Shown here piece by piece: positions 1 to 52,460 of a stretch of DNA of 64,000 nucleotides. The notes beneath the pieces were generated by a model. The model had not been told where the DNA came from and did not search any database. It saw only the letters and a program-made list of their open reading frames with translations. Within the stretch, counting starts at the first letter, position 1; every line of letters begins with the position of its first letter. The translations under genes were made by a program, and so were the position numbers. Origin of the DNA: Polytrichum commune (taxonomy: Eukaryota; Streptophyta; Polytrichopsida; Polytrichales; Polytrichaceae); NCBI GenBank assembly GCA_950295325.1, contig OX485803.1, positions 34,425,554 to 34,489,553 of the forward strand, in the 5' to 3' direction.

Positions 1-150
1 TTCTTGTTATCTTGTTTTGTATGTCTTATCTCATGGTGTGGAGTGTGTATCGGTTCAGAAATGGAGATTCAGATCGTTAGGCCAGTTTCTCTCTGTTGCG
101 GTCGTTGTTTTGCGTGATGGACTATATTCATCCTGATTTGTCTCGTTCAG

Positions 151-3100
151 GCGAGTCCAAGACTTCGGTTCAACAAGGATGGCTCCTTGCTAGCTGTGAC
201 TGCCTCAGATAATGGGATAAAGATTTTGGCCAATCGGGATGGAATTCAAATGCTTCGTGCATTTGAATCCCGTGCTTATGATGCGAATCGCGCTCCTCCC
301 GAACCAGCTGTGTCGAAGGTTAGATTTTGACATGGGTGCAGATTATTTTGTCTTCAGTAGTCATTCTCAAGAATGTAGGACTTTGTGAAGTATTGTTGCA
401 AATGTATGTATATCTCCATTTCTACAGAAGATATAGCACCAGATTTATCAGAGTCTTATGAATTTAGCTTGCACAAGTTTTCCTGTGCTGTGTGGTTAGT
501 TTGACTATTTGCTTAAGTCTACGTCCGTTTTGTCCTTTATTACCAATTCAAGTGCTTCGTGGAGTTAGTTTTCACATACAGTTCAATCTAATTATGTAAT
601 TGTCTTGGTATGCAGCCACCAGTTGGAAATGCACTTGGGGTGGTGAGTTCTCAAGGTCAAGGTCAAGGTGGTGGGCCTGGTGGGGGCGGGGAAAGACCAA
701 ATTCAACGTCAATGGCTGGGGCAGTTATGGATGGTCCAACTCTGAACATGGGAAGGGGTCGACCTAGAGACAGGGTTGGCAATGAGCATGTACTTAACAT
801 AAACACCCAGTTGTTGTAGTTTCAGAATGGTGTTGAGTTTTTCTGAAGAACTTTGGCCATACGTGTGCTGCATCAGCTTCTGGATGTTCTGATGCTTCTT
901 GTAGACATTTCCAATGTTTGCAACTGCGATTTTCCACTTTTAGTGATTCTATCCTGAAGTGTTAAAATTGTGTCTGTATGCAGGCTGGCATGGAACCTGT
1001 CCGGACACCTGAGACGAAACCCAGAATACCTGAAGAGATGCCAGATCGAAGCAAGAGCTGGAAGTTGACAGAAATCAATGATTCCACACAATGTCGGTCA
1101 ACAAGACTACCAGACACTCTACCACCTAACAAGGTTAGTTTCTACCTTGAATATGCTAGATTGTTCTGAGTAGGAGTGCTATTTACTGGATGCAACTAAT
1201 GAAACAGTTCTTAATCCTAGTGTGCCTCCAAATATGAATTTGACCCTCATTTTTATAGTGAATGTATCCAATACACTTACCAATACATGGTATTGGCACA
1301 GGTTTCAAGATTGATATACACCAATGCTGGAATTGCTCTGCTTGCGTTAGCATCTAATGCTGTCCACAAGCTTTGGAAGTGGCAACGAAGTGAACGAAAT
1401 CCTAACGGAAAGGTGTGAAAACATCTTGTCTACTGCCAAGTATTCAAAGATCATTTCTGTAATTTAGTCTTGAAGTCAGCAGATCTATTCCAGAATGCCT
1501 TGCATGTTAAGAGTGCTTAATCCTTGTAGCAGTTTTTGCAAACTTTTGTTGGAGTGTTTTAGTCAAACAAGACGTAATGCATTTGATGTAGGCTTGGACA
1601 TCTAATCTTCAATCAATTTGGTTGGTTCTTTTGATATGGATGAACATGTCTCTTGTTTCCTGACTAGTGAGCTTGTATTGTGCAATTTAACTTGCAGGCT
1701 ACAGCAAGCTTCCCCCCACAGTTATGGCAACCTGCCAGTGGTATTCTTATGACAAATGATATAAGTGACACCAATCCTGAGGAAGCAGTACCTTGCATTG
1801 CACTTTCCAAGAACGATTCATATGTGATGTCAGCTTCAGGGGGTAAAGTGTCCCTTTTCAACATGATGACATTCAAGGTACGAACTATCAGTCAGAAAAG
1901 TAAAACAATTACCAATTGTGGTAATGTCTCAGTTTTCTGTCACCTGGTTAATACATATGATCATATGTGGGATTTATCCACAAATTCTCCAAACAGGATG
2001 CAACTATGTTGAGAGAAGAGAATATAGGTTTGGGGCACTGCACTGTATTTGTGGGGCAGTGAGTGCACAGAAGCTTGATGCAAATTGTTTTTAACCATTG
2101 CTCGGAACATGGGCTTCAGGTCATGACGACGTTTATGCCACCACCACCAGCTGCTACATTCCTTGCATTCCATCCTCAAGACAACAACATTATTGCTATT
2201 GGGATGGAGGACTCTACTATCCAGATTTACAACGTTCGTGTGGATGAGGTCTGCTTTCTTAACCACTAAGCCAAGTGTTAAATGCTTTTAAAGCTTTTTT
2301 GCATTCCTCTTGTGAGCAAGCACCAATTTTTGTGAGGTTGATACATACCATCTTGTGGATTATTTGTTTTGTCTCATGGCGTCCAGTGCTTGTTTCTATT
2401 TCCAGTTCTGAAGTTTCACTTGTGTAATCCTTGTGCAGGTCAAGACAAAGTTAAAGGGCCACCAAAAGAGAATTACTGGCTTGGCTTTCTCCAATACCCT
2501 GAATGTGTTGGTGTCATCAGGAGCAGATGCTCAGGTATTGGAAAAGGATGCTTTACAGATATGTGACATACTTCCGTTTGTGCTGGTGATGTTCTTGACA
2601 AGTGGCTTTAGTGTATGTCTTTAGATATTCACATGCAATAGATTTGTTTTGACTTGTTCCTGACTGATGTGGATTGTGTCCGGTGGCAGTTATGTGTGTG
2701 GAGTACAGATGCATGGGAAAAGCGCAAAACTAAATTCGTGCAAGTATCAGCAGCAGGGAGATCGCCCTCTATGGGTGACACTCGTGTTCAATTCCACAAT
2801 GATCAAGTTAGACTTCTCGTGGTCCATGAATCACAATTGGCTGTTTATGATGCTGCCAAGTTGGAACGCCTTCGCCAGGTACTTGATTTTGCCATAGTTT
2901 TTGATAGGTTTCATGATAATGAGATTGTTGAATGGGTATGTGTGGCCATTAAAGGCATTTTGCTTACTTTGACTTTGTATGCAGTGGATGCCACAAAGTC
3001 CATTTTCAGCACCCCTTTCGAATGCCACATATTCATGTGACAGCCAGCTTGTGTATGCTGGATTTGTGGATGGTTCTGTGGGAGTATTTGATGCGGAGAG

Positions 3101-3579
3101 TTTACGGCCGCGATGCCGACTTGCTCCATCTGTACACATACCTCAAGGCGTCAATGGGTATGTACACAATTCTGATTTATCATCTTTTGCTTGCAGTAAA
3201 GACATCTAGGTGCATGTTGGAGGTTACTATGGAGCATGAATCGGAGAAGCAATTTGGTAGATGTTGTATACCTGGTACTTGTCCGGGTTTTGTCCATGTT
3301 ATGTACTGAATATCTATGAAGAAGTGGATGTGCAATGGACTAAATTGTGATGTCTGTCTGTCTGTCAGGTCCACTGTGTATCCACTTGTTATCGCGGCAC
3401 ACCCAGCAGAGGCCAATCAATTTGCTTTGGGCTTAAGTGATGGAGGTGTCCAAGTGATTGAACCTCTAGAGACGGAAGGGAAGTGGGGAACTGGACCTCC
3501 AGCAGACAATGGAGCAGTTAGTGGTGTACAATCTGGTCCTGCTTCTGGCAACCAAGGATCAGACCAAACTCCAAGATGA
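151..3579 (+). CDS. TPL-like: TOPLESS-type transcriptional co-repressor, C-terminal part (gene A; 5' end outside the window)
   Basis: Exons fit as 151-318, 616-774, 984-1133, 1302-1412, 1698-1877, 2120-2248, 2439-2534, 2690-2878, 2985-3157 and 3369-3579. All join in frame and give the last 521 residues of a Groucho/TLE-like plant co-repressor that acts in the nucleus with histone deacetylases. The translation matches TPL/TPR proteins closely: WKLTEIN, LWKWQR, ALSKNDSYVMSASGG, FHPQDNNIIAIGMEDSTIQIYNV, GHQKRITGLAFSN and LSDGGVQVIEPLE. These belong to the second WD40 propeller and the family's usual short C-terminal tail. A Gly/Gln-rich linker lies in the second exon, whose donor (gttggc at 775) is weak and is the least certain junction. 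Positions 1-150 are intron. The LisH/CTLH end and first propeller must lie to the left. The 3' flank is partly shared with the region after gene C. Confidence 0.93.
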
Positions 3580-5724: not shown

Positions 5725-5850
5725 TCTATAGAAAATACCCCAAATTATTAAAGAAAACCCGAAATATGTCAACATGCAACCGGTTGGACTTCGAAACACC
5801 AGGATGTTGACCAATTATGCACAGAAATCTCCCCCGACATTTGCTACCTT
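5725..5850. repeat. Dispersed repeat, copy 1 (pairs with about 50925-51040)
   Basis: About 110 bases resemble the stretch near 50925-51040 in the same orientation. Shared landmarks are 'aaaagaaaa', 'ccggttggactt' against 'ccggctggactt', and 'aaatctcccc'. This is a transposon-type repeat of unknown class; no coding capacity or terminal repeats were found. Confidence 0.6.
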
Positions 5851-6984
5851 CCCATCATCAGACTTGTTTATTCCTTCCTTCCTCTCCTCCTGCTTCCTTT
5901 GTATTTTAATTTTGTCTGTTGTTCTCTCTTCTTCCATACCTTACGCAATACTAGGGTCTTCCCTTTCTGTCATATAAATTGTGGTCAACTAAGCCCTAAC
6001 TATTCCCAAAATAATGGCTTGTATTTCAAGGAAATGTCCATATTATTACTCCAAATGCTCTCTAGGTTTTTATATTCTTGAATTTGAGAGGTTCACTACC
6101 TAATGAATGAATCTCAAGTTAAGTTTATGTGAATACCACAATGAATGCTTGTAACATGGTGTGTTGTCAGTGCATGTGAGATGTTGACTTTGGATCAAGT
6201 TGTTCCAATGCACCAACTTTCCTAATATCTAGATATCTTGATGATTTCTTTCCTTCTTTCATTTAGGCCATCTGACCCAATAATTTCCATAAAAATAGGC
6301 TTGACTATTTTAAATGATGTTTTGCCTACCTTGCTATCATACTACAGTAGTACCATCTCTCATGCCCAGAAAAAAATGGTAAAAGGGAATTTGGAAAAAG
6401 ATCTATGCCTTGAAAAAAATTATTCACTCATCACATAACTCAAGTGTAGACTTGTGTTTGCAAATATCCAAAGGATAAGCCCTCTCGAAGAAGGTTTCCC
6501 TTTAAAATATATTGTGCACTAAATTACCTTCATTTCACAAGCATCTAAGTATCGCAACGCCTAATCCACTTGTCGACATCTAAGTCTTGTGGAAACTAAC
6601 CTACTTCGAAAGCCATTTTTTCAATTTACTATGGCCAACTATCCACATGTTGGTTCTAGATCACCTGCAAGTGATACTTCTTCCATTTGGTCTATACAGT
6701 GAAATGACATGGTCAAATGAACTGATGACAAAATGAAAAATATGTTTATCCACTTCTCATCCCATTTGAAACAATCCCCATCCCACATTGGTAGAGTGCA
6801 TACATTGTAGTCGGCAGTAAAGAGAATGACACAAAATCCACCATTGTACCAAATAGTCGCCATGGATCGAGAAGAGCGCCAAGGGGGGGGGGGGGGTGGA
6901 TCGACTTGGACTTTTTTTCCGATATTGTTGTGTGCCTTCTCCCTAGTCCAAAATTCCCAAACCCCTTGTAGGATTGATGCCCAA

Positions 6985-7110
6985 CCTCAAAAGGCATTCA
7001 CACACAACCATGGCGGTTGCTAGTTTTAGTTTACTTTCTCTGACTTTGTTTTTGAAGGATGAGCATGGATAATGTGCATAGAGGACAACTTATCTTGCTT
7101 CATCAATTGT
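6985..7110. repeat. Dispersed repeat, copy 1 (pairs with about 13155-13270)
   Basis: The block containing 'acacacaaccatgg' followed by 'tagttt' and 'catggataa' recurs near 13155-13270 in the same orientation with moderate divergence. The two copies flank the gene B region on either side, which could have helped unequal recombination. That role is inference. Confidence 0.55.
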
Positions 7111-7675
7111 GAATATCCATGGGCTAAGACTCGGTAGTGTAGTACAAAGTCATCAAATTTTACTCAATCCTCTTACTCATTTATAGATGCAATATGTAGT
7201 TGAGGGTGATTGTGAAATTGTCCTTGCTTGTAGTTTGCTTTCTTTGGTTTTAATCACTATATGTGTTGAAGAGAAAACTTCAAATCCAAAGCATGGACCC
7301 GAAGTTTTCCATCCCTTCCAACATTGAACCAACTCAATTGGTAAACCTAAATCCAATATTCAACACATCATCATAAACTAAACCTCAAACACTCCCCCTT
7401 GAATATTCTCTTCAAAAAGGACCTTCAACTTGTGCTAGGGGGATCCTAAATCAAATACACACCCAATACTGGTGCAAACGCTGTTGATTTGGTCGTTGAA
7501 TGTCAAGACCTTTAATATTTGCACTCCCACCCTGTAACTTACCACAAGGTAGGCAATAAACCTTACCCTGTAAAAAAAGGGATTCTTAACCAAAACATGA
7601 CCAACGGGCTCCATTCATGTCGGTTGATACCGGTGTTTCTTTTTCTTTCCTTTCTCTTGGAATCCCAATGGAAAC

Positions 7676-7725
7676 GGGAATAGGGAAATGGGACCTATCG
7701 CCGTGAGTCCCATTTCCCTATTCCC
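7676..7725. repeat. Perfect 19-bp inverted repeat (hairpin) in the gene B 5' region
   Basis: The arm gggaatagggaaatgggac at 7676-7694 is followed by a 12-base loop and its exact reverse complement at 7707-7725. The matching point in the gene C leader (about 15205-15245) shares the loop-like 'ctatcgccgtgag' but lacks the long arms. It could be a MITE footprint or a cis-element of gene B. Confidence 0.85.
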
Positions 7726-7734
7726 GCGGAGCTC

Positions 7735-9084
7735 GGCTTCTTTCTTACGCTCACGGCATGGCGTGTGCCGTGCTGCGGGTGTCGGTAATGAAATATCTGA
7801 TGCGATTTGCAATTAACGTGTCAAGGTCTATACGTACTCCACGTCCATCACAATCCCAAATTCCCATTTCCATTTTCAAAGCTCCAGATTCGACTCACAT
7901 AGTCGCGCAGAGAGCTTTTTGGAGGCAGGAAGAGAAGAGGATTTACATTCTTAGGGACGAAGAAAACGAAGAAGAAGAAGAATGATGCGAGCTCACCATG
8001 CTGTAAGTCTTCTTGTCGAGAGTAAGTTGTTGTTGTTGAGCCACTGGGTTTGATGCGGTCACACAACAGAGTTCACTCGCTGGCCTGCTTCTGAGGAAAT
8101 TCATCGTTAGGTTCAGCTGTATGCACCAGACTTACAACAAGTTTGTAGGCTTTCTTGCGGCTAATTAATCATGTTGGGGTCATGTCTGCCTTCTCATTTT
8201 CTAAAATCCTGCATGGGGGATACCGCGGTCTTCTTTTGGGGGAATAATTTCTCCATGGCCACATGTAGCGTAAGTTTTGTTTTAAAGGAAAATGGTGTTG
8301 GGTTTAAGCTTGGCCGAATTGGAGGTTTGAGGTAAGGCTGTGATCAGGTTCGAGTGGCGTGGAGTTAAATGAACTGAGACATCGATCGATCACTGTGTTC
8401 ATGGTCGTCACAAGTCTTTCCTTTTGGGCTTTCTCGCATGGCTTGGCTCTTATGGGGATGGTTGATGGTGAGTAATATTTCTAATTTCAAGATGGGTGTG
8501 TATATTTGGCTTCCTCTTAATGTTGTGTCCGGTCAGAAGGTGGTTGTCGAGAGCTTTGCGTTTTCTTGCATTCACGAAGTTGTGGTAAAAATCGGTGCCC
8601 CCAGGTTTGTACTTAATCTCTATGCTCAAGAAAGATTCGAACAACTATAATCTGTCGCACATGTATCAATTTATCCATGTTAAGTGCCTTGTCAGTTCTA
8701 TCCCTTGCTTCTGTGCTTCAAGCAGATTTTGTGCCCTTGGTCATGCGGCCGACTTTTTATGGTTTCACTTGCATCTGCCTCCACTTTGTACTACAAAACT
8801 TTTCGCTGCAATTGTTTGTGCTCCAAATACAATAACTAAGAACCCAGTTGATGGAATTGGGTGCAATTTGGTGTGCAATTGTGATTCGAGAATGAGTTTT
8901 TTTTGTAAAATCCTAAGCAGCTGTGACAAACCCATAGTTAGCGCTCAAAGAAGGATTCAGAATTTAGGGTGACCATGTCAAGTTTCGCTCGGATATTCGG
9001 AACGATGTGCTCATGAAAGGGCACTATTCTGAATACTGGTTTTTGTGTTGACTCATTTGTTTTGCTACTTTTCATGCGAAATCT
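7735..9084 (+). promoter_or_regulatory. Gene B 5' leader, shared with gene C
   Basis: This stretch aligns piecewise with about 15240-16850 in front of gene C. Shared landmarks are 'acggcatg' and 'gtgccg', 'atgcgatttgcaat', 'tttccattttcaaagctcc', 'agaggatttacattc', a purine-rich run, a donor-like gtaagttg (8022 here, 15631 in C), 'tcgatcgatca' and 'gtcacaagtcttt'. It probably contains the promoter, a 5' UTR exon ending at about 8021, and a leader intron of roughly 1 kb. The acceptor in front of the gene B start was not fixed. Confidence 0.6.
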
Positions 9085-12000
9085 ATGGAGGACCTAAAAG
9101 AAGATGAGCAGATTATGGAGGCCAAAACTCCTGCAGATGACGATCTACTACAAGTTGCTGATAATCGACGTGCTCGCCGTTCCCGGAATGCAAGAAAATT
9201 TGGTGCTGCGCAATCTGCTCCTACTGTACAGGCGGATGTTAAAGGAAAGGGACGAGCTTTGTTGAAGCGCAATGTCGTGTGTGGTAGTGATGAGCATGTT
9301 GCAAAGAAGAAGCTGAACCCATTAATATGGAGAAACTTGCCCTCGGAGATTTTAAATCTTGTGTTGGATCATGTTCCACAAATGCAGCTTTATTTCCAAT
9401 TGGCAAAGAATGTGGTCCGCAATCTCAATCAGGGCTCATGTGTTATGAGCATGGATTTCCATCCTATGCAGCAAAGTGTCCTCCTTGGTATGTATGGTCT
9501 ATGAAGGTTCTTCCAAATTAATGTAATGTCAGATAGTCTTATTTAGTGAACTTAATCGCTGTTTTTCACTTATTAAACAAACCTGCTATCTTCTTTATCT
9601 CCCGGTTCGGAATTCAGAAATTAGACAAGAGCAGTAAAGCATACATTGCTTGATGTTTGTAGTTTGGCATGGATGTTACAGTTCGACTCTCTGCATGTCT
9701 CAAACGACCGACTTTGTCCCACTCACACTTCACTGTTCTATATGATTATGCAGTGGGTACAAATGTTGGTGACATTAGCATCTGGGAAGTGGGCTCCCGT
9801 GACAGGCTCGCTTCACGTACTTTCAAAGTCTGGGATACAACCGCTGCATCCATGCCCATGCGGGTGGGTGGTACTGTGTAAATGGGTTGTTAGTTTCTTG
9901 AAGGTCTTGATTAAACTTCTTATGGCTTGAAGTCCAGCAGAGAAATCTTTTCTTGATGTGCAAAGACATGTGGTGGGGATTTGGTTCTGGATGCCACAAT
10001 GAAAGATTCATTGGTAATTGTTGAGTTCCTGAGCCTAATCATATGGATGTGGTTCTCAGGCTGCCCTGGTGAAAGATCCAACTGTATCAGTGAATAAGAC
10101 TCTGTGGAGTCCAGATGGCATATTACTGGGTAAGTTTACAACTTCCACTACACTGTTTTGTCTAATTAGTGCGGGTTGCCTTTTGGAGTTATGTGTCGCT
10201 ATAACTTTTTACAGACATTATTGTTACTACAAACTAAATAATATTATATTCTTTGGTGTGCATACTAACTACTTGTGTTATTTGAGTAAAAAATGACACT
10301 CTCAGTAAAGGTTATAGCAACATGTAACTCCGAATGGTAACCCACACATATTAGACAAAACAGTGTAGTTTCCTTGTGTATTATTGACTAGGCATATATT
10401 ACCTTTAACACATTGTGAGTTACTCCAAGTGGTGTATGTATTTTAGTAACCAGTCATTTGGTTCTTGCAAATCATGCGTGTTCTCTAAACATTGTTGCTT
10501 TATGTTTCTGCAGTTGGATTTCTGATGGAATACTTATTCAGTGGTAGTGATAACTGGTGACCTTGTTCTCATGATTGTCATGTTCAGCTTGTAGTTGGCC
10601 TTCTGTTGTTGTCACATGTGCTGCCCTCATTAATGCTGTGCGAGTTGTAGTTGTGTCGTCATATTTTTCCCAATGTTCAGTTCAGACCATCTCAGTGCTT
10701 GGACTTGGTTATAAACAGGTGTTGCATTTTCAAAACACATTGTGCACATTTACATGTACACTGGTGGAAGTGATTTGCGGCAGCATCTGGAGGTATGTCT
10801 CTTAACATTTGTGTGTCAAGTATTTGACCTATTCCTTGTTATATGGTAAAGTTTGTACTGCACAGCATTCTGAAGTCAGTGGTTGTTGATTCTGATGATG
10901 GCTATTTTGAAAAGCAGATTGGTGCACATGTTGGCGGTGTGAATGACTTGGCATTCTCTTATCCCAACAAGCAATTATGCGTTATCACTTGTGGAGATGA
11001 CAAAACAATCAAGGTGACATTTTACTTGTGAAGAGCAATTCAAATGTGTAACCAGATCTGGCTGCCATTTGGAACATTTGAGTACCATGACTCGTTTATT
11101 CATGAATTCAACAGGTACTGTGCAGACTCCAGGCAGGGTGCAAAAGATTTGTGTTTCTGACAAGGCTGTGATTGTGCAAATGTTGCAGGTGTGGGAAGCA
11201 ACAACTGGGCGCAAGCTCTATACATTTGAAGGTCATGAAGCACCTGTTTACTCAGTCTGTCCTCATCACAAGGAAAGCATACATGTATGACTTGTGACCT
11301 GAAGGTGTCGCCACCTGCACATGTCCTAGTTTTTGCATCTATTTAAACCTTGGAACTTATTCTTCACATTTATGAATTTTTGCCAAGTGCACAATCTTAC
11401 CCATTCTTCTATATTGGTCCAGGTTGACTTGTCTTATGTATGACCTGAGCCGGGTTGTAAAATATGATAATTGCGTGTTGGAGATTGATCTGCTTTCATG
11501 AATGTGGATCTTCCTGGAAAAAATCTAATTCAGTGACGTGGACCTGAAATTGCAGTTTATTTTCTCAACAGCAATTGATGGTAAGATTAAAGCCTGGCTG
11601 TACGACCTTATTGGATCCAGAGTTGACTATGATGCGCCAGGTCACTGGTGCACTACGATGGCATACTGTGCAGATGGCACAAGGTACATCCATGATCTTT
11701 ACACTTAGAGAGGAAGACATGAAGACAGGATGGTTTTCTGGTTTGTACATGTAACAATATATATAGCACTGTGCTACAGTTTCATTGCGCCGGCACCTAC
11801 CCTTAGATTCATGGCTGCATAGGTCTACATAGATGCCAAACTATCTTAAACACTGCAGAAAATTAAGTAATTCATACATTTTCGTCTATTGCTCGTAGGC
11901 TCTTTTCATGTGGTACAAGTGAAGAAGGAGAGACATATTTGATGGAGTGGAATGAGAGTGAGGGGGCTATCAAGCGGATCTACAATGGTTTCCGGAAGCG

Positions 12001-12880
12001 TTCTTCAGGAGTGGTGCAGTTTGATACAACTCGGAATCGGTTCTTAGCTGCTGGAGATGAGTTTGTGATAAAGTTCTGGGACATGGACAGCACCAACTTG
12101 TTATGTCAAATTGAAGCGGATGGTGGCTTACCGGTTAGTAATGGTGGAGGTTCTTGTTATCTTGTTTTGTATGTCTTATCTCATGGTGTGGAGTGTGTAT
12201 CGGTCCAGAAATGGAGATTCAGATGGTTAGGCCAGTTTCTCTCTGTTGCGGTCGTTGTTTTGCGTGATGGACTATATTCATCCTGATTTGTCTTGTTCAG
12301 GCGAGTCCGAGACTTCGGTTCAACAAGGATGGCTCCTTGCTAGCTGTGACTGCCTCAGATAATGGGATAAAGATTTTGGCCAATCGGGATGGAATTCAAA
12401 TGCTTCGTGCACTTGAATCCCGTGCTTATGATGCGAATCGTGCTTCTCCCGAACCAGCTGTGTCGAAGGTTAGATTTTGACATGGGTGCAGATTATTTTG
12501 TCTTCAGTAGTCATTCTCAAGAATGTAGGACTTTGTGGCAGTTTTGTTGCAAATGTATGTATATCTCCATTTCTACAGAAGATGTAGCACCAGATTTATC
12601 AGAGTCTTATGAATTTAGCTTGCACAAGTTTTCCTGTGCTGTGTGGTTAGTTTGACTATTTGCTTAAGTCTACATCCGTTTTGTCCTTTATTACCAATTC
12701 AAGTGCTTCGTGGAGTTAGTTTTCACATACAGTTCAATCTAATTATGTAATTGTCTTGGTATGCAGCCACCAGTTGGAAATGCACTTGGGGTGGTGAGTT
12801 CTCAAGGTCAAGGTCAAGGTGGTGGGCCTGGTGGGGGCGGAGAAATACCAAATTCAACGTTCATGGCTGCAACCTCTTAA
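9085..12880 (+). CDS. Chimeric protein: F-box-like N-terminus fused to the first TOPLESS WD40 propeller (gene B)
   Basis: Ten exons fit with consistent phase: 9085-9487, 9754-9863, 10060-10129, 10719-10792, 10918-11013, 11189-11284, 11556-11683, 11899-12133, 12301-12468 and 12767-12880. They give 497 residues with no internal stop. Residues 1-77 are charged. Residues 78-100 (NPLIWRNLP, then ILNLVLDHVP) look like the first half of an F-box. From about residue 105 the protein follows TPL: NLNQGS, MSMDFHP, GTNVGDISIWEVGSR, FKVWD, AHVGGVNDLAF, CVITCGDDKTIK, FEGHEAPVYSVCPH and GDEFVIKFWDMD. It ends after the Gly/Gln linker, where gene A continues into its second propeller. LisH and CTLH are absent, so classic EAR-motif binding is not expected. 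Introns 8 and 9 and the last exon are about 98% identical to gene A, so part of it is young. It could be a decaying copy, but ten intact junctions argue against simple decay. Confidence 0.8.
10137..10372. repeat. Inverted-repeat (MITE-like) insertion in gene B intron 3
   Basis: Two arms of about 65-70 bases face each other. The left arm (about 10137-10210) contains 'actacactgttttgtcta' and 'ggagttatg'. The right arm (about 10308-10370) contains the complementary 'tagacaaaacagtgtagt' and 'gtaactcc'. The whole lies inside the intron between 10129 and 10719. A related arm fragment (tatagcaatgcgtaactcc) is present at about 14302-14320. No clear target duplication was found. Confidence 0.7.
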
Positions 12881-12992
12881 TCCGAAGCCAATATTATATG
12901 AAAATTCTGGTGGGGGAATGAGGTTGAAAGCCATTGAGGCTTACATTCCTACTCCTTGGCCTCAACCTAAACCATCAAACTGGGTTCGAATA
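12862..12992 (+). pseudogene. Exon-like fragment of an unrecognised gene joined to the end of gene B
   Basis: Homology to gene A stops abruptly at about 12861. The sequence beyond reads in another frame as an exon-like stretch (LNPKPILYENS, then IEAYIPTPWPQPKPSNWVRI) ending at a good donor, gtaagt at 12993. Gene B's own frame hits TAA at 12878-12880 just after the join, adding only MAATS-like residues. I do not recognise the family. It may be a captured exon, or chance. Confidence 0.4.
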
Positions 12993-13034
12993 GTAAGTGA
13001 CAGTAGTCGCATCATTGTAAATCTATAATGCCAA

Positions 13035-13140
13035 AATTTCTTCGAGGAATGACAAGCAATGTTAGGTTTACATTTGGTGTTGGTGGTACTAGACTGTCGG
13101 TTGACAATGAATAATGAGCAAGACACATAGAGTTGTTGAC
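13035..13140. repeat. Dispersed repeat, copy 1 (pairs with about 28258-28385)
   Basis: The stretch with 'atgttaggtttacattt', 'gtgttggtg' and 'gagcaagacac' recurs at about 28278-28345 in the same orientation. It probably belongs to the same transposon family as the 27.6-28.4 kb repeat area. Confidence 0.6.
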
Positions 13141-13154
13141 ACTCAATACAATAT

Positions 13155-13270
13155 TTAAGGGAGCATCAAGGGGTATTTACACACAACCATGGTGGTTGAT
13201 GGTTCTAGTTTACACTCTTTGGGTTCGATTTTGAGGGATAATCATGGATAAGGTGCTTTGATGGCAGCCA
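13155..13270. repeat. Dispersed repeat, copy 2 (pairs with about 6985-7110)
   Basis: This is the second copy of the block described at 6985-7110. It shares 'acacacaaccatgg' and 'catggataa' with intervening similarity. No coding capacity is seen. Confidence 0.55.
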
Positions 13271-13654
13271 CTGTTTCTTCATGACCTACAACAACTTTTA
13301 CTTGGGAGTTAGTTGTTTTGCATATGGAGCTGTCCATGTTTGATAAGTTTTGCGTGCATCCTTGGGTAGTGCAGAGGTTCAAACATAACTTTCTATACCG
13401 GTGTGCTAAGAATCTAACTTATTTTGACATGCCAAGATGTGCTAAAATGAGTTCGGCCCTTGATGAACCGAAATAGGTTGCTCTTCATTCAAACTCAATC
13501 ATAGCCTTTGAGCATGCACCGTAAGTGGAAAAAAATTCTTTATGTTGTATACAAAGCAACCAATGAAATATCATTGGGGACCAACTTTTGACAGAAATTC
13601 TCATTGAGTTGAAGGATCAATTTATTGTAGTACAAAGTCAGTGAGTTTTACTAA

Positions 13655-14181
13655 GGGCTTGTTTAGACTTGGGGCCAAGGCCATTGGGAACGAAGGCCAA
13701 CATGTCCCATGTGGCATGCAAATGGGCCCCCAAGGCCATTAATAAGAAAGTAACCTAACTCCATTTATTGCTTTCATGTGTAAACCTATTTAGGAGGGGT
13801 TGGGGCCATTTAGAGGCTGCAATTATGAGAGGCTTATCCACGTACCAACGTACTTATGAACTATTCAATGGATAATGATTAAAGTATAATAAATTTAGAA
13901 TTTCTCCCCTCCTATTCAATGCTCAAAGAATAAACTACTACAAGCAAATAAAAGCTATGACAATGGCCTCAACTAAAGGGAAAGAGTTCACAAGGTTGGG
14001 AGCTCTCTTTTCCAAGGCTTGAGGCCATTGTCATGATGAATAAAATAATTTATTTGTTAATTGACCCCAACTCATGGTGTAAACTTGAAGAGGTGAGTCC
14101 CAACCTCTCTACCAATGAGAGGAGTGGATTTCCTTCACCCCAACCCATTTTTGAGCCTTGACTCCAAGTCTAAACCCGCCC
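13655..14181. mobile_element. Harbinger/Tourist-type MITE with TAA target duplication
   Basis: The ends are imperfect inverted repeats of about 27 bases. The left starts GGGCTTGTTTAGACTTGG; the right, read on the other strand, starts GGGCGGGTTTAGACTTGG. TAA flanks both sides (13652-13654 and 14182-14184). Terminal GGGC with a TAA/TTA trinucleotide duplication is the hallmark of PIF/Harbinger elements. The 527-bp interior has no coding frame, so it is non-autonomous. Confidence 0.88.
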
Positions 14182-14329
14182 TAACATTGTCAACAAATCT
14201 TATCCATTAAGTTTTGACATGCATTACCTAGGCCTTGTTACCACTCAAAGGTAGTCTTCACAATGCTTCTATCCCATGATGGATAAAGCCAATAAAATGT
14301 TATAGCAATGCGTAACTCCAAACAATATG

Positions 14330-14709
14330 CACCAATTCACATGGGGTCCCAACTCCACACTCCCACTCATGTTAGCAAGTCCCAACATGGACACAAAGTC
14401 CCAACTTTTGAGCCTCAAGAAACCATTAACATATGGTTAATTATCATTAAAGTTGGACCTTGATTATTTTATGCAAAAATATTCACATGACTTGTGTTGA
14501 GCGTTGGGCCTAGCTTTTTGCTCAACCCAACTCTCAACACAGGTCCCAAGCCTCACCTCCAAAAAGTGTTGCCATGTAGGCATCCATGTCATACTTGGGA
14601 GCCCATGTAGAATGGTGAGTCCCAACTTCCATGCTCTCAATAACTGAGATCGCACAGAGTGACCTCAAGTGACTTGGGATTCAGGACTTGGGAACCCGTG
14701 TGAACTGGC
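14330..14709. mobile_element. MITE family copy 1 (pairs with 34860-35249)
   Basis: About 380 bases match 34860-35249 along their whole length. Landmarks are 'gttagcaagtcccaacatgga', 'aggcatccatgtcata', 'gtcccaac' and 'tccatgctctca'. Both copies end in inverted repeats of the type CCAGTTCACACGGGGTCCCAA. The insertion site duplication is unclear for this copy. Confidence 0.8.
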
Positions 14710-15180
14710 TAAGTCACATTGAAGTAGAAGCGCCCACAACTGATCATTGAAGAGATTCTCCGCTAGATCTGAAGAAGTATAAGGCAGTGCAAACTTATCC
14801 CGCATAGGAAGATAGATTCATGATAACTTCAAATTTTTTTTGGGTAATTTTATTCTCTAAATTGAAATTACTATGAAATTTTGAAGCCAAAAATATGATC
14901 CAAACATATTACCAATGTCTAGAGTCTGCCATAACTGCTCATTTTAACCGCTCATTTCTCCTCACTTTAACACTTAAAACCAGGGCATGTGTCATGGCAC
15001 TATTGGTTCGGGCTTGATCGAATTTCAGTCCCAACTCGATGGTAATTCCAGTATCTTATAGATTGCTAATGGGTCCTGGTCGGGAATAGGCGCCTCTATT
15101 ATAAATAGCATAGACGGTATAATGGTCCTGAAGCCGTCCAGTGTGGCCGGGGCTTCCACGATGGAGTCAAGTGTCGGCCA
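14710..15180. other. Intergenic DNA before gene C
   Basis: No gene or recognisable element is seen. The end of the stretch runs into the leader that gene C shares with gene B. Confidence 0.5.
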
Positions 15181-16959
15181 CCGGGAGCTTCATACGGAAT
15201 TAGGTAAGAGAGACCCTATCGCCGTGAGGCTCCTAAGACTGCGGAGCCCGTCTTCTTCATGAGCTTACGGCATGCCGTGTGCGGGGCTGCAGGTGTCGGT
15301 ATTGAAATGTGTCTATGTAATGTGTATGGCCTGCCCAATTGGGATGATTCACTTGCGCGAAATTTCCATTAGATTGCCAGCAGGCAGTCGGAGTGTTTCC
15401 CATCAGGGAGGGAAATGTGTGATGTGATCTGCAATGGCAAGGTATGACATACTCCATGGCCATCACATCGTCCCCACTTCCCATTTCCCATTTTCATTTC
15501 CAAAGCTCCGGAGTGCACTCACATAGTCACGCAGGGAGCTTATTTGACGCGGAAGAAGAAGAGGATTTACATTCCTAGGGAGGAAGAGGAGGAGGCGAGC
15601 TCACTGTGCGGTGAGGCTTCTTCATCAGAGGTAAGTTGTGGTTGCGCCACTGGGTTTGATGTGGTCACACAACAAAGTTCACTCATTGGCCAGCTTCTGG
15701 AGAATTACATCGTCAGGTTCAGCTGTAGTTTGTGTGAATCAGACCCACAAATTAGTTTGTGGGCTTCTTGTGGCTAGTTAATTATGTTGGGGTTTGGTAT
15801 GTCATCTCCTAAAAGGCTGCAAAGGAGGGCACCGCGGGTGTTTTTTGGGGGAATAATATCTCCATGGCCACATGTAGGAGGGCACTCTTTGAATTTGCAA
15901 ATTTTTTATGGAAAATGAATCAAACCCACAAATTAGTCTGTGGCCAATTACTTGTGTTGGGGGTTATGTCTCCCTTCTCATTTTGTAAGAAACTTGTTCA
16001 CGGCCATGTCATGTAGAGGAGGCACAATTTATACTTTCAAATTCTGGAAGGCAAATGGTAGTGGGTCTTGGCTGGTGAGGAGGTTTGTGATTGAGCTGTG
16101 ATTATGAGGTTCATCATTCCTTGTTTTTGGTGCGGAATCAGATGAACCGAGAGATCGATCGATCAGTGCGCTGCTCATGGTCATCACAAGTCTTTGCTGT
16201 TGGGCTTTCTTGCATGTCTTGGCTTCTGGAGATGGTTGTGAGTATTAAGGTTCATCTCAAGATTGATATGTTGAAAGTCTTCCTCTTAATTTTTTTGTCC
16301 GGTCAGAAAGTGATTCTTAAGAGCCTCGTTTCTTGCATTCATGAAGTTGTGGTGGTAAGAGCCGGCGTCCCCTGTTTTGTCCTCAATCTCCATCTGCAAG
16401 AAGATTCGAACAACTTCAACCTGTGTCTCGCACATGTGTATGTGTACATGTGTCCATGTTAAGTGCCTTGTCGATTCTATCCCCTGTTTGAGTGCTCCCT
16501 GCGTGTGGTCATCCGGCCTTCTTTTTGTGGGGTCACTTGCATCTGCCTCCACTTTGCACTACAAATCTCTTCACTGCAATTGTCTTGCTCCAATTACTAA
16601 AGTAAGAACCAAATCGATGCAATTGGGTGTGGGATGGCGATTTGAGAATGAGTTTGTTAGTTAAACCCTAAGCAGCTGTGGCAAACTCTCAGTAAGAGTT
16701 GAAAGTAAGATTTAGGATTTAGGGTGCTCAGAGTCTTGGACAGAATAGTCATGTCAATTTTCGCATGGCATACGGAGGGATATCTTTCTAAACGCTGGTT
16801 TGTGGGTCTTGAAGTCCTGTATAATATACTCATTTCTTTAATTATTTATCTGTGCAGTACTTAAGAGGTCTCTCAAGTGGTAGTACTGCTGACTTTTGTG
16901 ACTTTGTTGGCGAGACTCTCCCCCAGCTTATTATTATACCTTGGTCTTCGTCACCTGCC
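15181..16959 (+). promoter_or_regulatory. Gene C 5' leader, shared with gene B
   Basis: This region is homologous to about 7690-9084. It includes a likely 5' UTR exon ending at the donor after 15630 (cagag|gtaagt) and a leader intron ending at the acceptor tgtgcag at 16851-16857. From 16858 the frame of gene C is already open, and its first ATG is at 16960. Gene B lacks the segment corresponding to about 16858-17068. Confidence 0.6.
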
Positions 16960-19900
16960 ATGTGGAACTTCGCCATGAACATAGCAGGTATAGGGTGTTG
17001 TGCGGCAAAGGGTTCTGATAGAGCTGTGCACAAAATTGTCAATGTCCTGTACGCCTATAAGGATACTTTGAATGACCTAAAAGAAGCTGAGGAGATTATG
17101 AAGAGCGAAGGCACCCCTGAAGATGTTGACCTAATCCAAGTTGCGAAAACTTTGCGGGAGAGGGTTGCAAAACTGCTACTCGATGTACTTGAGGTTCGTA
17201 AATTGCAAGAATGTTTGGGTGTAGCTCAACCTGCTCCTCATGCACCGGCTTTCTCATCAACACTATGTGAGTATCCAGAAGTTAGTTGTGCTGGGGTCGG
17301 TGGAGAAGCAAAGAAAAGAAAAGTTCTACTGTCGAAATCAGGTGCAAAAACAAAGATAAGTGTTGGTGGATCAAAGGATGGTGTTGTTGTTCACACGGAC
17401 CTTAAGGGAAAGGGAAGAGTGTTGTCGGAGGGTGAACTCTTGCGTGGGTTTGGTAAGCACGTTGCAGAGGAGGAGATGAACCCATTGATATGGAGTAACT
17501 TGCCCGTGAATCTCGTAGAACTTGTGTTGGCTCTTGTAGTTCCACAAATTGAGGATTCTTCGCAATGCCAGTCGACCCGACTTCCAGATACACTGCCGCC
17601 AAGCAAGGTTAATTCATACCCATCTCCATAACTAAGGCATAAGAAATGTTTGAGGAGACACAAGAGTTATCCTTTAACTCAATGGGGCTTGAAGTCAGCA
17701 GTTGGTCCCGTATGACTTTTCATTGCTTGTTTTGCATACAATGTCAGCAAATTCTATTATTTGTGGTGCACGCCTGAAGGTAGTAGATTTGTATGAAGAG
17801 CAACCTATTTCAGCTGATTGAGGGCCAAACTGATTTTAGCACCTCTTGGCATGCCAAAATGAGCTTGATCCTCAATGAGTCACTATAAAATGTATGATTG
17901 ATTGAATGCTTTCATCCGAAACTTCTTTCATGGCATCATCAAACAATGAGCTTCAGTTCTGAAAACCTACATGGTCAATGTAATGACTCGAAATGTTTTC
18001 AGTCTCTTACCAGAGCAACTGATTGACACAGGTGTCGAAACTGATGTACACAAATTCTGGAAATGCCTTGCTCGCATTAGGATCAAATGCTGTCCACAAG
18101 CTTTGGAAGTGGCAACGAAGTGAACGAAACCCTAGTGGAAAGGTGCATTAACAATCATATATTTACTGTCATATATTTATAAACATCTAGTCTGTAATCT
18201 GGATGTCTTGAATTCAGCAGAGCTGTGACCCAGATTGTCTTTTATGTTAATAGTGCTCAGTCTTTGTATGTTACTACCTCTACTACTTGTAAAGTCTTGT
18301 TTGAGGTTTTTTTAGTGACTTTTGTTGTAGGCCTGTTCCATATAAACACCTCTCATCAATTTATCTGGTCCTTACTGATATGAGTGATCAAGTGTCTTGT
18401 TCAATTTCTTGGCTTATGACTGTCTATTGTTTTGATTCAACTTGGCAGGCTACAGCGAGTGTCCGCCCACAATTATGGCAACCTGTCAGTGGTATTACAA
18501 TGAAAAATGATATTAATGACACCTTTTCTGAGGGAGCAATGCCTTGCATGGCACTCTCCAAGAATGATTCCTATGTGATGTCCGGTTCAGGGGGTAAAGT
18601 GTCCCTTTTCAACATGATGACATTTAAGGTATCCACTATCTCTTTCTTTTAGAAAATAATTTTATAAAACAGATAATAACGATCATAACCTATTTCTGTT
18701 GTATTTTAGTGAGTGTCTTGTCACACATGCCTGAAGACCACACAGCCATGATCAACTAAGGGATGTGGCCCTATTGTTGGCACTTGCAACTCTACAGATA
18801 ATTGTGGCTGCTGGGTCAAATTGGGAACTATCTCACCCGGTTAGCAAATGGAAATCACATTGATTTTCACTGCAAGTTTGAGAATTGGAGTTGAGATGAG
18901 AAAGCTATAAGGGGTCAAAGTGAAGATACATATGTATATATATATATACACATTTTTAGTTTTCTTTTCTTATCAAGTGATCGCATCAGCCCACGTGTTA
19001 ACTATGGAACCTAGAATGGTGTCTGTATTTTGAGCACATAGTCCAATCTCATTGTGAAATGTGTCTTTTTTGGTGTCCATTCTTAACTACAAGCCTGTGC
19101 CATAGACCACTCAAATATAGGTGTCGAACTCAGAACAGTGACCACATAAGGCCCACATACATACCTTAGTTGACCATGGGAGCAAAATTTCACTTGGTTT
19201 CGTTCAGAGTTAAGTTTTGAATTACTGTTGTGTACGCCCACTGCAGATTATGACGACATTTATGCCTTCACCACCTGCTGCAACAGTTATTGCATTTCAT
19301 CCTCAAGACAACAACATTATTGCACTTGGGATGGAGGACTCTTCTATCCAGATCTACAATGTCCGTGTAGATGAGGTTTGTGCTTTCTTCACCATCATGT
19401 GAACTTTCAAACCCTCACTTCTTTTTCTTTTTGTAGTATGTTGGAACACCAACAGTTGTAGTATTGATACCAATGTTGGGCTGGTATATAGGTGAATCCA
19501 TGGTATTGATACACATTGTCAATAACAGTTTCAAAATTGTAATACTAGTCATACACCTATTGATACTTGGTGGGTATTATGAGATAAGAGTCATTGTATA
19601 CCCAAGTCATTATTTGGGTCGATACCATAAGACCATTTGGATACTAGGGAAGTTTTAACAACTCATTAAGGTTCTTGCATGGTATATAGACCAGTACGGT
19701 ATCAAAAGCATAAATATCCTCAAAAACTCATATCCTACTAGTATGAAATTAATGTGAAATCATGATTAAATACACCCAAGTGGTGTCAAAAAAAGGTGAT
19801 ACTAGTCCAACATGGGTTGATGCATGAGCTTCTGAATCATTTTTTCATGTATGTTTCATTAGGGGGACAATAAAATGGCTTTATTACGATCATATGTTAA

Positions 19901-22577
19901 ATATTGGTTCCTCCAATTCTGTGCAGGTCAAGACAAAGTTGAAGGGACACCACAAGAGAATTACTGGCTTGGCCTTTTCCAACACTCTGAATGTTCTAGT
20001 ATCATCAGGGGCAGATGCCCAGGTAATAAATATACTTGATCATGGGTAGGGATGCCTTGCAATTGTTTGAATTTTTTCTGGTGGCCTCAAATCAGTGTTT
20101 ATGTCACAGCGGTGTTGCGACCAGTAGTGTTGGACTGGTATCATCTTTTTTGGATACCACTTATATAATGAGGCTTTCACATTTTTTGGTACCAGTAGAG
20201 TATGGGTTTTTGATAATGCTTTTGTGTGTGATTCCATTGGGTTCTATATACCATCCAAGAGCCTTCATACCTAGGTAATAGTGCTCTAGTATCAATATGG
20301 TACTAGGTGGTAATTACCCAAATAACAACTCGGGGTATACAAGGATTTTTTTTCATTTTGTGATGCCCACCAATAATTTTTGTTTAAAAAACCATTTGGG
20401 TCTATTTGCCATCCAAGATGCTTCATACCTAGGTAAAATTACTTAGTAGCAATATGGTGTATTGACCTAAGAACAACTCAGATATAAAAAGATTCTCTCA
20501 TCTTGTGATACCCACCAAGTACAATATTTGATTGATATTACAATTCTGATATCGATCGGGTAGGTTCTTTGATGCCATTATTGATGTTGTGTATTGATAC
20601 CATACTTTTAGCTATGAACCAGTCCAACATATTCAAATGTATTAAAAGGATGCACAGTGCATACTTCTAATTTTACACATGGCCTTAGAATCTGATGTAT
20701 GGTTTTGGGTGCCAGATATCTGTGTGGTGTACAAGTGCATGGAGAAGGCGCAATGTTGCGGTAGTACAGCCAGTAGGGGGATTACCTTATATGGATGAAA
20801 CTCTTGTACAATTCCACAAAGACCAAGTCAAACTTCTTGTTGTCCGGGAGTCGCAGCTGGCCATTTATGATGCTGACACATTGACTCGTCTTTGCCAGGT
20901 AGGTATTGTTTTTGGACACAATGCAAACTTACCTCCTTGAACACTTTTTTGTGCTAGTTTCTTATACTCTCAGGTTGCACAACCAAACTCTGATGCAATC
21001 AGTGTAAGGATTGGTTTACATAGGGCATTTGGCTCTATTGTGGGCCTTCCAACTCCACAGACAATTTTGGTTGTTGGAATGGATCAGAATGAGAATTGTT
21101 TCCTCCAGTTTGCATATGTAAATTACACAAATTTCATTTTAAGTTGCAGAATTGGAGCTGAGATTACAAATTTGTAAGAGGTCTAAGTGAACCTTATCTT
21201 TCTCTTAAGTTGATCACATAAGCCCTCTCAATTGTATTAACTACAGAACCTAGATTTGTGTCTATATTGTGAGCACATAGTCTAAACTTATTGTAACATG
21301 TGTCTTTTTAGTGTCCATCCTCAACTACAAGCCTTGCCATATATATTTCTCAAGTACAAGGTGTCCAATCTAGAAGAGTGATAACACAAGGCCCACATAT
21401 CTTGTAATGAATTGGGTCATTCAAATATTTTTAGACATTTCTCCAGGTTGCCAAAAATAATCTCTACAAAGTTTGGTCATGAACACATTTTTCACAATGT
21501 CTATGTTCTCGAAGTTATCTGTTTTTTGTTTGCTGACTTTCATGGCTGGTGTTGGTATTTTTAAGCTTACTTTGGTTTTGGTGTGTTGGCTGTGTATGCA
21601 GTGGGTGCCTCAAAGATCATTGTTGCCTCAAAGATCATCCACATCACTTCTTACACATGCCACCTACTCATGTGACAGCCAGCTTGTATTTGCAGGATTT
21701 CATGATGGTTGTGTAGGGATCTTTGATGCAAAAAATTTAGAGCCATGTTGTTGGCTTGCTCCTTCTATATACATACCTCAAGGTGTTCACAGGTACGTAC
21801 CAATGTTGGACCAATATATAGATAAATGCATGGCATCAATACATATTTTCAATACTAATATCAAAGAATCTACCCAGGTGGTATCAAACATTGTAGTCTA
21901 GTCAGATATTGGTACTTGGTGGGGTATCACAAGATGAGAGAATCTTTGTATACCCAAATCCTATTTAGACCAATACCATCCCATTACCATATTTGATACT
22001 AGGGTAATTCTACCTAGGTATGAAGGTTTTTGGATGAGATGTAGACCTGAATAGTATCAAGAACAAAAATATCCTCAAATACCCATTACCTGTATACAAA
22101 ATAAAATGGAAAGTTCTCATTATATACCCAAGTGCATATTGATGCTGAGAATATCCACCACCTTAGTATCAGGCTCCCATGATGATTCTAAGTCATCCTC
22201 AAAACTTTGCATCCTTGTAATTTTTGCATATGTATTTTGAATCAAGACATACTTTGGTGCATTGGAATTCCTTGTGAATTGCTAATGACAACCATTTTTT
22301 TTCTTGTTTTAATGTTCTATCGTCAACACTTAAAGTGACTATCTTAGCACCATCTACCTTATGTGTTCCCAAATTTTGTGTAAAATTTAATTGAGTCTGT
22401 TTCTGTGGCAGGTCCACTGTGTATCCCCTTGTGATTGCAGCTCACCCAATAGAGCCCAATCAATTTGCACTGGGCCTAAGTGATGGAGGTGTCCAAGTGA
22501 TTGAGCCTCTAGATGAAGAAGGAAAATGGGGAAATGGCCCCTCAGCAGAAAAGGGAAAGGGTACTGGTAGTGTATAA
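16960..22577 (+). CDS. Chimeric protein: F-box-like N-terminus fused to the second TOPLESS WD40 propeller (gene C)
   Basis: Exons 16960-17607, 18032-18142, 18449-18628, 19247-19375, 19927-20022, 20716-20898, 21602-21792 and 22412-22577 join in phase into 567 residues. Residues 1-172 are non-TPL. They hold an acidic helix-rich stretch and a KKRKV nuclear-localisation-like motif at 118-122. Residues 173-197 (MNPLIWSNLP, VELVLALVVPQ) are an F-box-like first half. From residue 198 the protein is the TPL C-terminal part: QCQSTRLPDTLP, LWKWQRSERN, ALSKNDSYVMSGSGG, HPQDNNIIALGMEDSSIQIYNV and LSDGGVQVIEPLDEEGKWG. The first propeller and LisH/CTLH are absent. Introns do not align with gene A, so this copy is older than gene B's TPL part. 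Three introns hold MITE copies. The frame is open upstream to 16858, so an upstream start is possible. Confidence 0.82.
19471..19815. mobile_element. hAT-like MITE (GTTGGACTGGTAT family) in gene C intron 4
   Basis: It begins CAATGTTGGGCTGGTAT and ends with the inverse-type ATACTAGTCCAACATG. Internal blocks ('gtattgatacacat', 'tacttggtggg', 'gtatacccaagt') recur in the other family copies. The flanks ATTGATAC and GTTGATGC agree at 6 of 8 positions, as a decayed 8-bp duplication would. Confidence 0.75.
20126..20640. mobile_element. hAT-like MITE of the same family, opposite orientation, in gene C intron 5
   Basis: It starts AGTGTTGGACTGGTATCA and ends with ACCAGTCCAACAT. Internal order is reversed relative to the 19471 copy, and two partly repeated middle blocks ('ccatccaaga', 'cataccta') suggest an internal duplication or two fused copies. 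Confidence 0.7.
21801..22180. mobile_element. Degenerate hAT-like MITE in gene C intron 7
   Basis: The left end 'ccaatgttggaccaatatatag' and internal blocks ('ggtacttggtggggtatcac', 'gtatacccaa') match the family. The right end is eroded and its boundary is approximate. Confidence 0.6.
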
Positions 22578-52142: not shown

Positions 52143-52150
52143 GCCCCCTC

Positions 52151-52460
52151 CCTCAAATACGCAATGCAGTTGGATCAATCCAAAGCTCGCGATGTACTCG
52201 CTTCTCCACTCTGTTTCAGAGTACAAAGCTTCTCCTCAAATATGCACTGCAGTTGGAACCCAAAGCTCGAAATCTACTGACTTCCCTCTGTTTGGGAGTT
52301 GAAAGAGTATCCTCAAATACGCAAATGCAGTTGGAATCCAAAGCTCGGAACCTACTGTCTCTGTTCAGGAGTCGAAAGCATATCCTCAAATGTGCAAATG
52401 CAGCTGGGGTTTAGAGCCTCGCAATCTACTTACTGCTCTATGTTCAGAGTCGAAAGCGTG
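52151..52460. repeat. Four-copy tandem repeat directly upstream of the minus-strand SRPBCC gene
   Basis: The anchor 'cctcaaat' recurs at 52151, 52234, 52311 and 52384. Each is followed by 'gca-atgcagttgga', 'ccaaagctcg', 'atctact' and 'ctctgtt--ggagt-gaaag'. The period shrinks from 83 to 73 bases. The array occupies the expected 5' UTR/promoter of the gene. Confidence 0.88.

Follow-up and report, generated by a model that had tools for sequence, protein, structure and literature searches.

In Polytrichum commune a complete TOPLESS (TPL) gene, A, is followed in the same orientation by two chimeric genes, B and then C, each of which joins the front of an F-box-like gene to one TPL propeller, the first in B and the second in C. 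The array lies in the 64,000-nucleotide stretch of contig OX485803.1 that was analysed (the window; Table 1). Judged from its substitutions, the propeller of C is under purifying selection relative to A, and the pattern of divergence points to an old age for B, with later overwriting from A through gene conversion. Our preferred reading, held at slightly less than even confidence, is that nested tandem duplications built the array, that C may be a propeller-only competitor for TPL partners, and that B is non-functional or neutral.

Table 1. Features of the TPL array in window coordinates.
Feature	Position	Strand	Remarks
Gene A, 3' part	1..3579	+	Complete TOPLESS gene; 1164 aa encoded by 25 exons in the model
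Duplicated intergenic stretch	6987..7103	+	75% to 13166-13282 before C (self-comparison)
B 5' flank, presumed promoter/leader	7674..9082	+	Paralogous to C 5' flank (15194-17067)
Gene B	9085..12880	+	497 aa from 10 exons; TPL propeller 1 behind an F-box-gene front
B F-box-gene front	9085..9399	+	105 codons; Pfam F-box partial match, alignment to C, frame check
B TPL propeller-1 segment	9400..12869	+	Homologous to A -2514 to 718, introns included
MITE in B intron	10151..10363	.	63-nt inverted ends with 84% complementarity
Unconverted B intron patch	10364..10680	+	22.6% diverged from A versus 2.2% in remaining B introns
Dispersed-repeat fragment	12882..12999	.	Directly after truncated end of B
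Intergenic stretch ahead of C	13166..13282	+	Copy of 6987-7103 (self-comparison)
C 5' flank	15194..16959	+	Paralogous to B 5' flank
Gene C	16960..22577	+	567 aa from 8 exons; TPL propeller 2 behind an F-box-gene front
C F-box-gene front	16960..17553	+	~198 codons; N-terminal extension plus ~half F-box
C TPL propeller-2 part	17554..22577	+	74% to A 782-1147

Structure of the two chimeras

The start codon of gene A lies upstream of the window (G000:C1:34419266), and the gene encodes LisH_TPL (residues 5-34), CTLH (TPR1-like_2nd, residues 37-161) and zf_topless (residues 164-204) domains as well as two WD40 regions. It is the sole TPL found in the genome. The original prediction, of two neighbouring F-box-like/TOPLESS chimeras that divide the TPL propellers between them, was borne out: both gene models were rebuilt with all introns GT..AG, zero internal stops and frames open over the junctions, and protein alignment to A placed one propeller in each gene (B residues 106-494 against A residues 345-733, 94% identity, 367/389; C residues 196-565 against A residues 782-1147, 275/372 identical with gaps counted). 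What did not stand is an even split in a single event, since the B half is near-identical to A and the C half is old. The shared intron positions, together with these identities, indicate that both propellers derive from TPL, and the retention of TPL introns in B and C leaves a retrogene route unsupported. The likeness of the B propeller half to A extends to the DNA, most intron sequence included (blocks of 96.7% and 94.0%), and the gaps in the C propeller relative to A are in-frame only.

B and C resemble the TOPLESS/TOPLESS-RELATED proteins of plants (Groucho/Tup1-like) in the propeller-1 and the propeller-2 region, respectively, but have a single propeller each and an F-box-like N-terminus, and thus fall outside full TOPLESS/TPR membership. 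LisH, CTLH/CRA and the TPL zinc finger are absent, with B beginning at A residue 345 and C at residue 782; the 25 best Pfam matches of each chimera (out of 33 for B and 41 for C) did not include LisH_TPL.

The F-box-like start proved real in both fronts, but it amounts to about half an F-box. Exon 1 of B matches positions 1-21 of the 43 in the Pfam F-box at 14.6 bits, under the 20.5 cut-off, no Pfam F-box match was listed for exon 1 of C at E up to 10, and a complete F-box (~43 positions) is absent from B and C alike. A separate C-terminal recognition domain is present in each (WD40 Pfam matches). The B front is damaged: alignment to C and a frame check revealed two compensating frameshifts plus deletions, the N-terminal part is lost, ~15 codons stand in a shifted frame, and ~half an F-box remains at its end. 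Over residues 55-244 of P0002 the C front is 40% identical to the F-box-like gene sequence C3:56982091-56982690, and the junction of this front with the propeller is positioned accurately to a few codons.

A paralogue of both fronts, L002, is an uninterrupted 574-aa F-box-like frame on another contig (G000:C3:56981992-56983713). This F-box/kelch-like gene has in common with the B/C fronts the N-terminal extension and roughly the first half of the F-box, whereas in the chimeras a TPL propeller replaces the F-box remainder and the entire C-terminal domain. The F-box of L002 scores 16.5 bits, also under the Pfam cut-off (24.3). Beyond residue ~200 many F-box genes match it (at least 34 of 46 matches overlap a Pfam F-box match), and four matches to solved structures, with E 0.12 or worse, were not convincing. 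Searches using B exon 1 and C exon 1 found no further chimeras, and AlphaFold2, given exon 1 of C with that of B, reached a mean pLDDT of 35.6, too low for use.

Divergence, selection and gene conversion

A dN/dS near 1 in both copies had been named in advance as grounds for abandoning the prediction, and C withstood this comparison with a ratio of 0.20 against A (interval 0.145-0.283). Exon 22 carries 1 nonsynonymous and 12 synonymous changes (p 5e-7), the conserved exons are scattered along the propeller, and none of 4000 neutral simulations of C at K 0.33 (0/4000) was free of stops. Part of the constraint could predate the fusion. For B the outcome goes against function: the pairwise dN/dS against A is 0.53 with an interval that reaches 1.15, and at 0.025 the dN lies near the divergence of the introns (0.022). 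The B propeller is ~2-3% diverged from A, and the fronts of B and C, compared with each other, gave a dN/dS of 0.67 (interval 0.38-1.17; 103 codons, the frame-shifted stretch of B included).

One intron patch of B differs from A at 65/287 sites, against 39/1769 in the other B introns (p 1.8e-32). This diverged patch (22.6%), which lies beside a MITE with at least 39 further copies in the genome, is evidence of a recent A-to-B conversion. The divergence of the patch (K 0.27) is similar to that between the 5' flanks of B and C (346 differences at 1355 aligned sites, K 0.31; p 0.33). A recent insertion of the B piece, favoured by the 94-97% identity, was dropped on account of the patch. Selection keeping the B exons distinct from A was likewise considered and rejected (34/1167 exon sites versus 39/1769 intron sites outside the patch, p 0.23). 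Synonymous differences between A and B, taken alone, exceed those of the introns (12/267 sites, p 0.034), and the differences cluster at both ends of the shared segment.

Origin of the array

Nested tandem duplications fit the gene order, orientation, shared flanks and divergence. In such a scheme the front of an adjacent F-box gene (X) would have been joined to TPL. An older duplication would have given X5'|propeller 2, that is C, and a later one, from A exon 8 to the C front, would have placed X5'|TPL between A and C; this copy would then have lost propeller 2 to become B and been held close to A through conversion. We infer both the order of events and the former neighbour X. Synonymous divergence (A-C 0.67, B-C 0.55) does not separate the two events, so the order rests on the A-C introns, six of seven of which are without a local match. 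Compared with what is expected of a chimera made by tandem duplication, the TPL source is adjacent, on the same strand and with its introns kept in the copies, and the F-box source was not found adjacent: tblastn over the window plus 20 kb upstream gave no hit at E <1 other than the fronts of C and B. The Drosophila tandem-duplication chimeras described in PMC4503668 are similar in orientation, exon-internal breakpoints and an intact adjacent source (here TPL), and differ in that the present array holds two products and underwent later gene conversion.

A single two-propeller chimeric ancestor, duplicated and then reciprocally trimmed, is a possible alternative that agrees with the similar F-box breakpoints, but it predicts an A-B age equal to that of A-C. 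Past the shared CCACAAAT the B-C junction has ~10/17 matches by eye, a length insufficient to choose between origins. Independent fusions, in which two tandem F-box genes each took a TPL piece by transposon or template switching, the B piece recently, would explain why TPL is joined at slightly different F-box places in B and C, why the B piece is near-identical to A apart from one patch, and why its right end borders a dispersed-repeat fragment. Against this, the diverged intron patch is a sign that the B piece is old, no inverted repeats of at least 25 nt other than the MITE of the B intron were found in 3580-13300, and it is unlikely that two independent in-frame joins would fall no more than ~25 bases apart in a reading frame of 1.7 kb; we regard such fusions as improbable. 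For a Pack-MULE-type capture, terminal inverted repeats would be expected around the captured genes; no such pair was found flanking gene C, and the inverted repeat copies at 13409-13628 and 17658-17872 enclose the C front only, not the whole gene. An assembly or annotation artefact is extremely unlikely. The near-identity of A and B over ~3 kb and the reliance on a single assembly would be in its favour, but A and B differ by 34 exon sites, many intron sites, the 213-base MITE and the diverged patch, C differs from A in all eight shared exons, and each chimera sits in its own flank.

The repeat fragment after B is 71% identical to a stretch ~31 kb upstream in L003; it has a weak protein match elsewhere, with stops inside. 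A third-gene fragment at 12864-12995 was rejected as an exon of a known gene and is read as dispersed repeat.

Possible function and significance

C carries the surface of the second TPL propeller on a new N-terminus. Missing from it are dimerisation through LisH/CRA, the CTLH groove that binds EAR, and the repression helix of the TPL N-terminus. TPL propellers are described as binding RLFGV/DLN recruitment motifs, with repression carried by the N-terminal helix (PMC8203292, PMC13251949). Since C lacks the N-terminal functions of TPL, it would hold propeller-2 partners without delivering repression, and its likeliest function is that of a propeller-only competitor; B is probably neutral or non-functional. 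The decoy role that had been offered as an alternative for both genes is the better functional reading for C only. A bolder version, to which we give clearly less credence than to our preferred reading, is that C is a long-preserved TOPLESS antagonist tuning the sole TPL found, with B a second experiment reset by conversion.

The main rival takes neither chimera to be functional: both would be left over from local duplication, with a recent fusion and the constraint on C inherited from a full TPL copy. The near-neutral change of B and the loose evolution of the B/C fronts agree with it, as does the tendency, described for Drosophila in PMC4503668, of young chimeras to be often tandem and of long-preserved ones to be more often dispersed. 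On the other hand, the ~198 codons of the C front are open and the flank shared with B is old (K 0.31), C keeps its GT..AG introns and only in-frame propeller gaps, and its conserved exons are spread across the propeller; on balance we consider this rival unlikely, though a serious contender. As one possibility, the original prediction had put forward SCF ubiquitin-ligase adaptors. In such a role SKP1 would be bound by what is left of the F-box, and the propeller would recruit the partners of TPL for ubiquitination. The remnant is correctly placed, N-terminal to a WD40 domain, and the half in B is recognisable as F-box. However, both genes retain only about half of the domain, which makes a working SCF adaptor unlikely, the B front is partly frame-shifted, and the C remnant, with pS 0.31 and pN 0.31 against L002, has no synonymous excess (28 codons only). 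This reading is therefore unsupported, was ruled out as the main one by the truncated F-box, and is left with very little probability.

A propeller-only competitor would resemble the engineered F-box decoys of PMC6483598, in which a substrate arm lacks the F-box, in that its recognition domain likewise comes with no complete F-box; those decoys are described as constructs of one E3 protein, whereas here the domain is corepressor-derived and the competitor role a proposed one. If C competes, TPL output would be lowered, as with the moss dominant negative PpTPL2-N176H described in PMC10953049, which is a TPL point mutation, whereas in C the first propeller and all that precedes it are gone. Among the papers listed by literature searches, no title or opening of an abstract mentioned a TPL/F-box chimera or propeller-only TPL gene. 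TPL is reported to be essential in Physcomitrium patens, where double knock-outs were unobtainable (PMC10953049).

That conversion left only the patch beside the MITE untouched calls for caution in dating such chimeras by overall identity. We know of no clear account of the role of each TPL propeller alone, and a natural, selected gene with the second propeller only offers a ready means of probing what that propeller does. If C is a competitor, the array may be a case of a corepressor tuned by a rival born from its own gene.

Gene A and the structure of the chimeras

Gene A, the complete TOPLESS (TPL) gene, was assembled by adding about 10 kb of DNA (L001) upstream of the window, which spans G000:C1:34425554-34489553, and its gene model comprises 1164 residues from 25 exons. 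Residues 1-209 match solved rice TPR structures (4zhe, E 1.7e-128). When the genome (408 Mb, 64 contigs) was searched with A residues 1-241, five matches corresponded to A's own exons and the next best had an E value of 0.02 (11 of 11 candidates scored). With the full A protein, all 33 matches at E 1e-10 fell inside the A-B-C array (40 of 82 candidates scored). Gene A is thus the only TPL found in the genome, within reach of both searches.

The rebuilt gene models reproduced the predicted lengths of chimeric genes B (497 residues, 10 exons) and C (567 residues, 8 exons), and the frames are indeed open across the junctions, with GT..AG introns in both. As proposed, B holds the first TPL WD40 region (B 106-494 against A 345-733, 367 of 389 identical) and ends three residues past the codon matching A residue 733. 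C holds the second (C 196-565 against A 782-1147, 275 of 372 identical, gaps included), the match extending to A residue 1147. The TPL parts of both genes retain introns, and were therefore copied as DNA.

Positions of features in gene A, the window and contig C3
Feature	Position	Description
LisH_TPL	A residues 5-34	domain match
TPR1-like_2nd/CTLH	A residues 37-161	domain match
zf_topless	A residues 164-204	domain match
WD40 matches	two regions of A	domain match
Gene B	9085-12880	F-box-gene front, TPL propeller 1
Gene C	16960-22577	F-box-gene front, TPL propeller 2
Flank before B front	6987-7103	recurs before C front, 13166-13282 (self-comparison)
MITE	10151-10363	213 bases, inverted ends of 63 nt; patch starts at its end
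Diverged intron patch of B	10364-10680	
Repeat just past gene B	12991-13157	at least 39 other genome copies at 78-84% (40 of 2360 candidates scored)
Repeat pair in inverted orientation	13409-13628 and 17658-17872	enclose C front; one in C's first intron
Nested inverted repeats, foldback-element-like	25472-26698	about 1.2 kb; arms 71-94% complementary, flanked by C and G runs; portions also at 57959-58434
73-bp tandem repeat	52151-52407	3.3 copies
219-bp tandem repeat	62308-62963	three copies, 93% matching
Similar open frames	51768-52235 (-) and 60828-61250 (+)	WSGGVH...ECELERAWAIQ and WSGGVH...DCPVEAAWAIQ; by eye, look like one small ligand-binding-like family
F-box-like gene L002	G000:C3:56981992-56983713	uninterrupted
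Broken close relative of L002	G000:C3:56961470-56962595	58-65% identity, several stops; about 20 kb from L002, opposite strand

The F-box-gene fronts

Both starts had been described as F-box-like. B matches Pfam F-box positions 1-21 of 43 (14.6 bits); no F-box match was listed for C. C exon 1 matches the uninterrupted 574-residue frame of L002 at 40% over residues 55-244 of the query protein P0002. L002 itself covers F-box-like positions 1-45 of 47, and its 16.5 bits fall short of the 24.3 cut-off. Used as a genome query, it found 46 further matches, of which at least 34 overlap a Pfam F-box match, a lower bound since 45 of the genome's 126 such matches were used; C was the sole match to its first 170 residues among the 46 listed.

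The B front resembles that of C, and its resemblance to L002 is weak. Exon 1 of B and exon 1 of C, used as genome queries, recovered each other, A and L002; neither revealed other chimeras, the remaining matches being weak (E above 0.3). Aligned with C, B is without the first 36 codons and a 147-base piece of the front, and gaps of 29 and 1 bases shift about 15 B codons into another frame, the C/L002-like frame being still readable but unused. For C against L002, pS is 0.50 and pN 0.32 in the N-terminal extension (80 codons); in the F-box remnant pS and pN are equal (0.31), so it exhibits no sign of constraint, albeit in a small sample of 28 codons. B against C over the front gave a dN/dS of 0.67 (0.38-1.17; 103 codons, B's shifted stretch included).

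Selection and probable gene conversion

C is kept as a protein. The dN/dS of its TPL half against A is well under 1 (0.20, interval 0.145-0.283; dS 0.67, dN 0.136, 364 codons). Exon 22 carries one nonsynonymous and 12 synonymous differences (p 5e-7), constraint is looser in exons 23 and 24 (dN 0.27 and 0.21), and synonymous sites of exon 18 are saturated. Neutral simulation at K 0.33 gave a mean of 9.3 stops and no stop-free run in 4000; at K 0.10, 2.3% were stop-free. With an Arabidopsis TPL sequence as outgroup (363 columns), 41 changes were C-only, 13 A-only and 34 undecided.

For B against A, dN/dS is 0.53 (bootstrap interval 0.27-1.15; dS 0.048, dN 0.025, 389 codons). A and B differ at 34 of 1167 exon sites and 39 of 1769 intron sites outside the patch, and the same outgroup (358 columns) assigned 11 changes to B, none to A and left eight undecided. 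B thus changes at about the neutral rate. Its open frame is unsurprising, since neutral simulation at K 0.011 left 61% of runs stop-free (indels not counted).

In the self-comparison, A and B share two blocks, at 96.7% and 94.0%, the A-C exon matches are old, and the fronts of B and C match at about 74%. Divergence between A and B is uneven, with 65 of 287 sites differing in the patch against the 39 of 1769 in other introns (p 1.8e-32). The adjoining MITE recurs in the genome: scoring 40 of 1647 candidates gave at least 39 other copies, at 81-87%. The patch K of 0.27 (our own arithmetic) is close to that of the B-C non-coding front (0.31, 346 of 1355; p 0.33). These figures are most simply read as an old TPL part in B that A sequence has overwritten on either side of the patch, the MITE having halted copying on one side. 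Of the seven A-C introns, only intron 2 retains a local match (K 0.36), and the synonymous divergence of neighbouring exon 20 is below that of the remaining exons (p 0.02); this is perhaps another converted patch.

Origin and possible role

Gene order, orientation, flanks and divergences are explained by nested tandem duplication. A first duplication would have joined A exon 18 to a neighbouring F-box gene, X, giving C; a second would have joined A exon 8 to C's front, giving B, whose second propeller would have been deleted later. Against this count the failure to find X in the array neighbourhood and the inability of synonymous divergences to rank the events; the rivals are that independent fusions gave B and C, or that both descend from a single ancestor with two propellers. 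No counterpart of the inverted repeat enclosing C's front was seen before B.

PMC8203292 and PMC13251949 assign dimerisation, EAR-motif binding and Mediator contact to the TPL N-terminus, and recognition of other recruitment motifs (RLFGV and DLN) to the propellers. C retains one propeller surface and nothing of the N-terminus, and the most economical mechanism we infer is that it would compete with A for propeller-2 partners. Chimeric genes born of tandem duplication are already known (PMC4503668); among the papers listed by literature searches, judged by titles and abstract starts, there was no published fusion of a TPL propeller to an F-box-gene front. In moss, TPL is indispensable and a dominant-negative version causes pronounced effects (PMC10953049), so a natural TPL competitor could matter.
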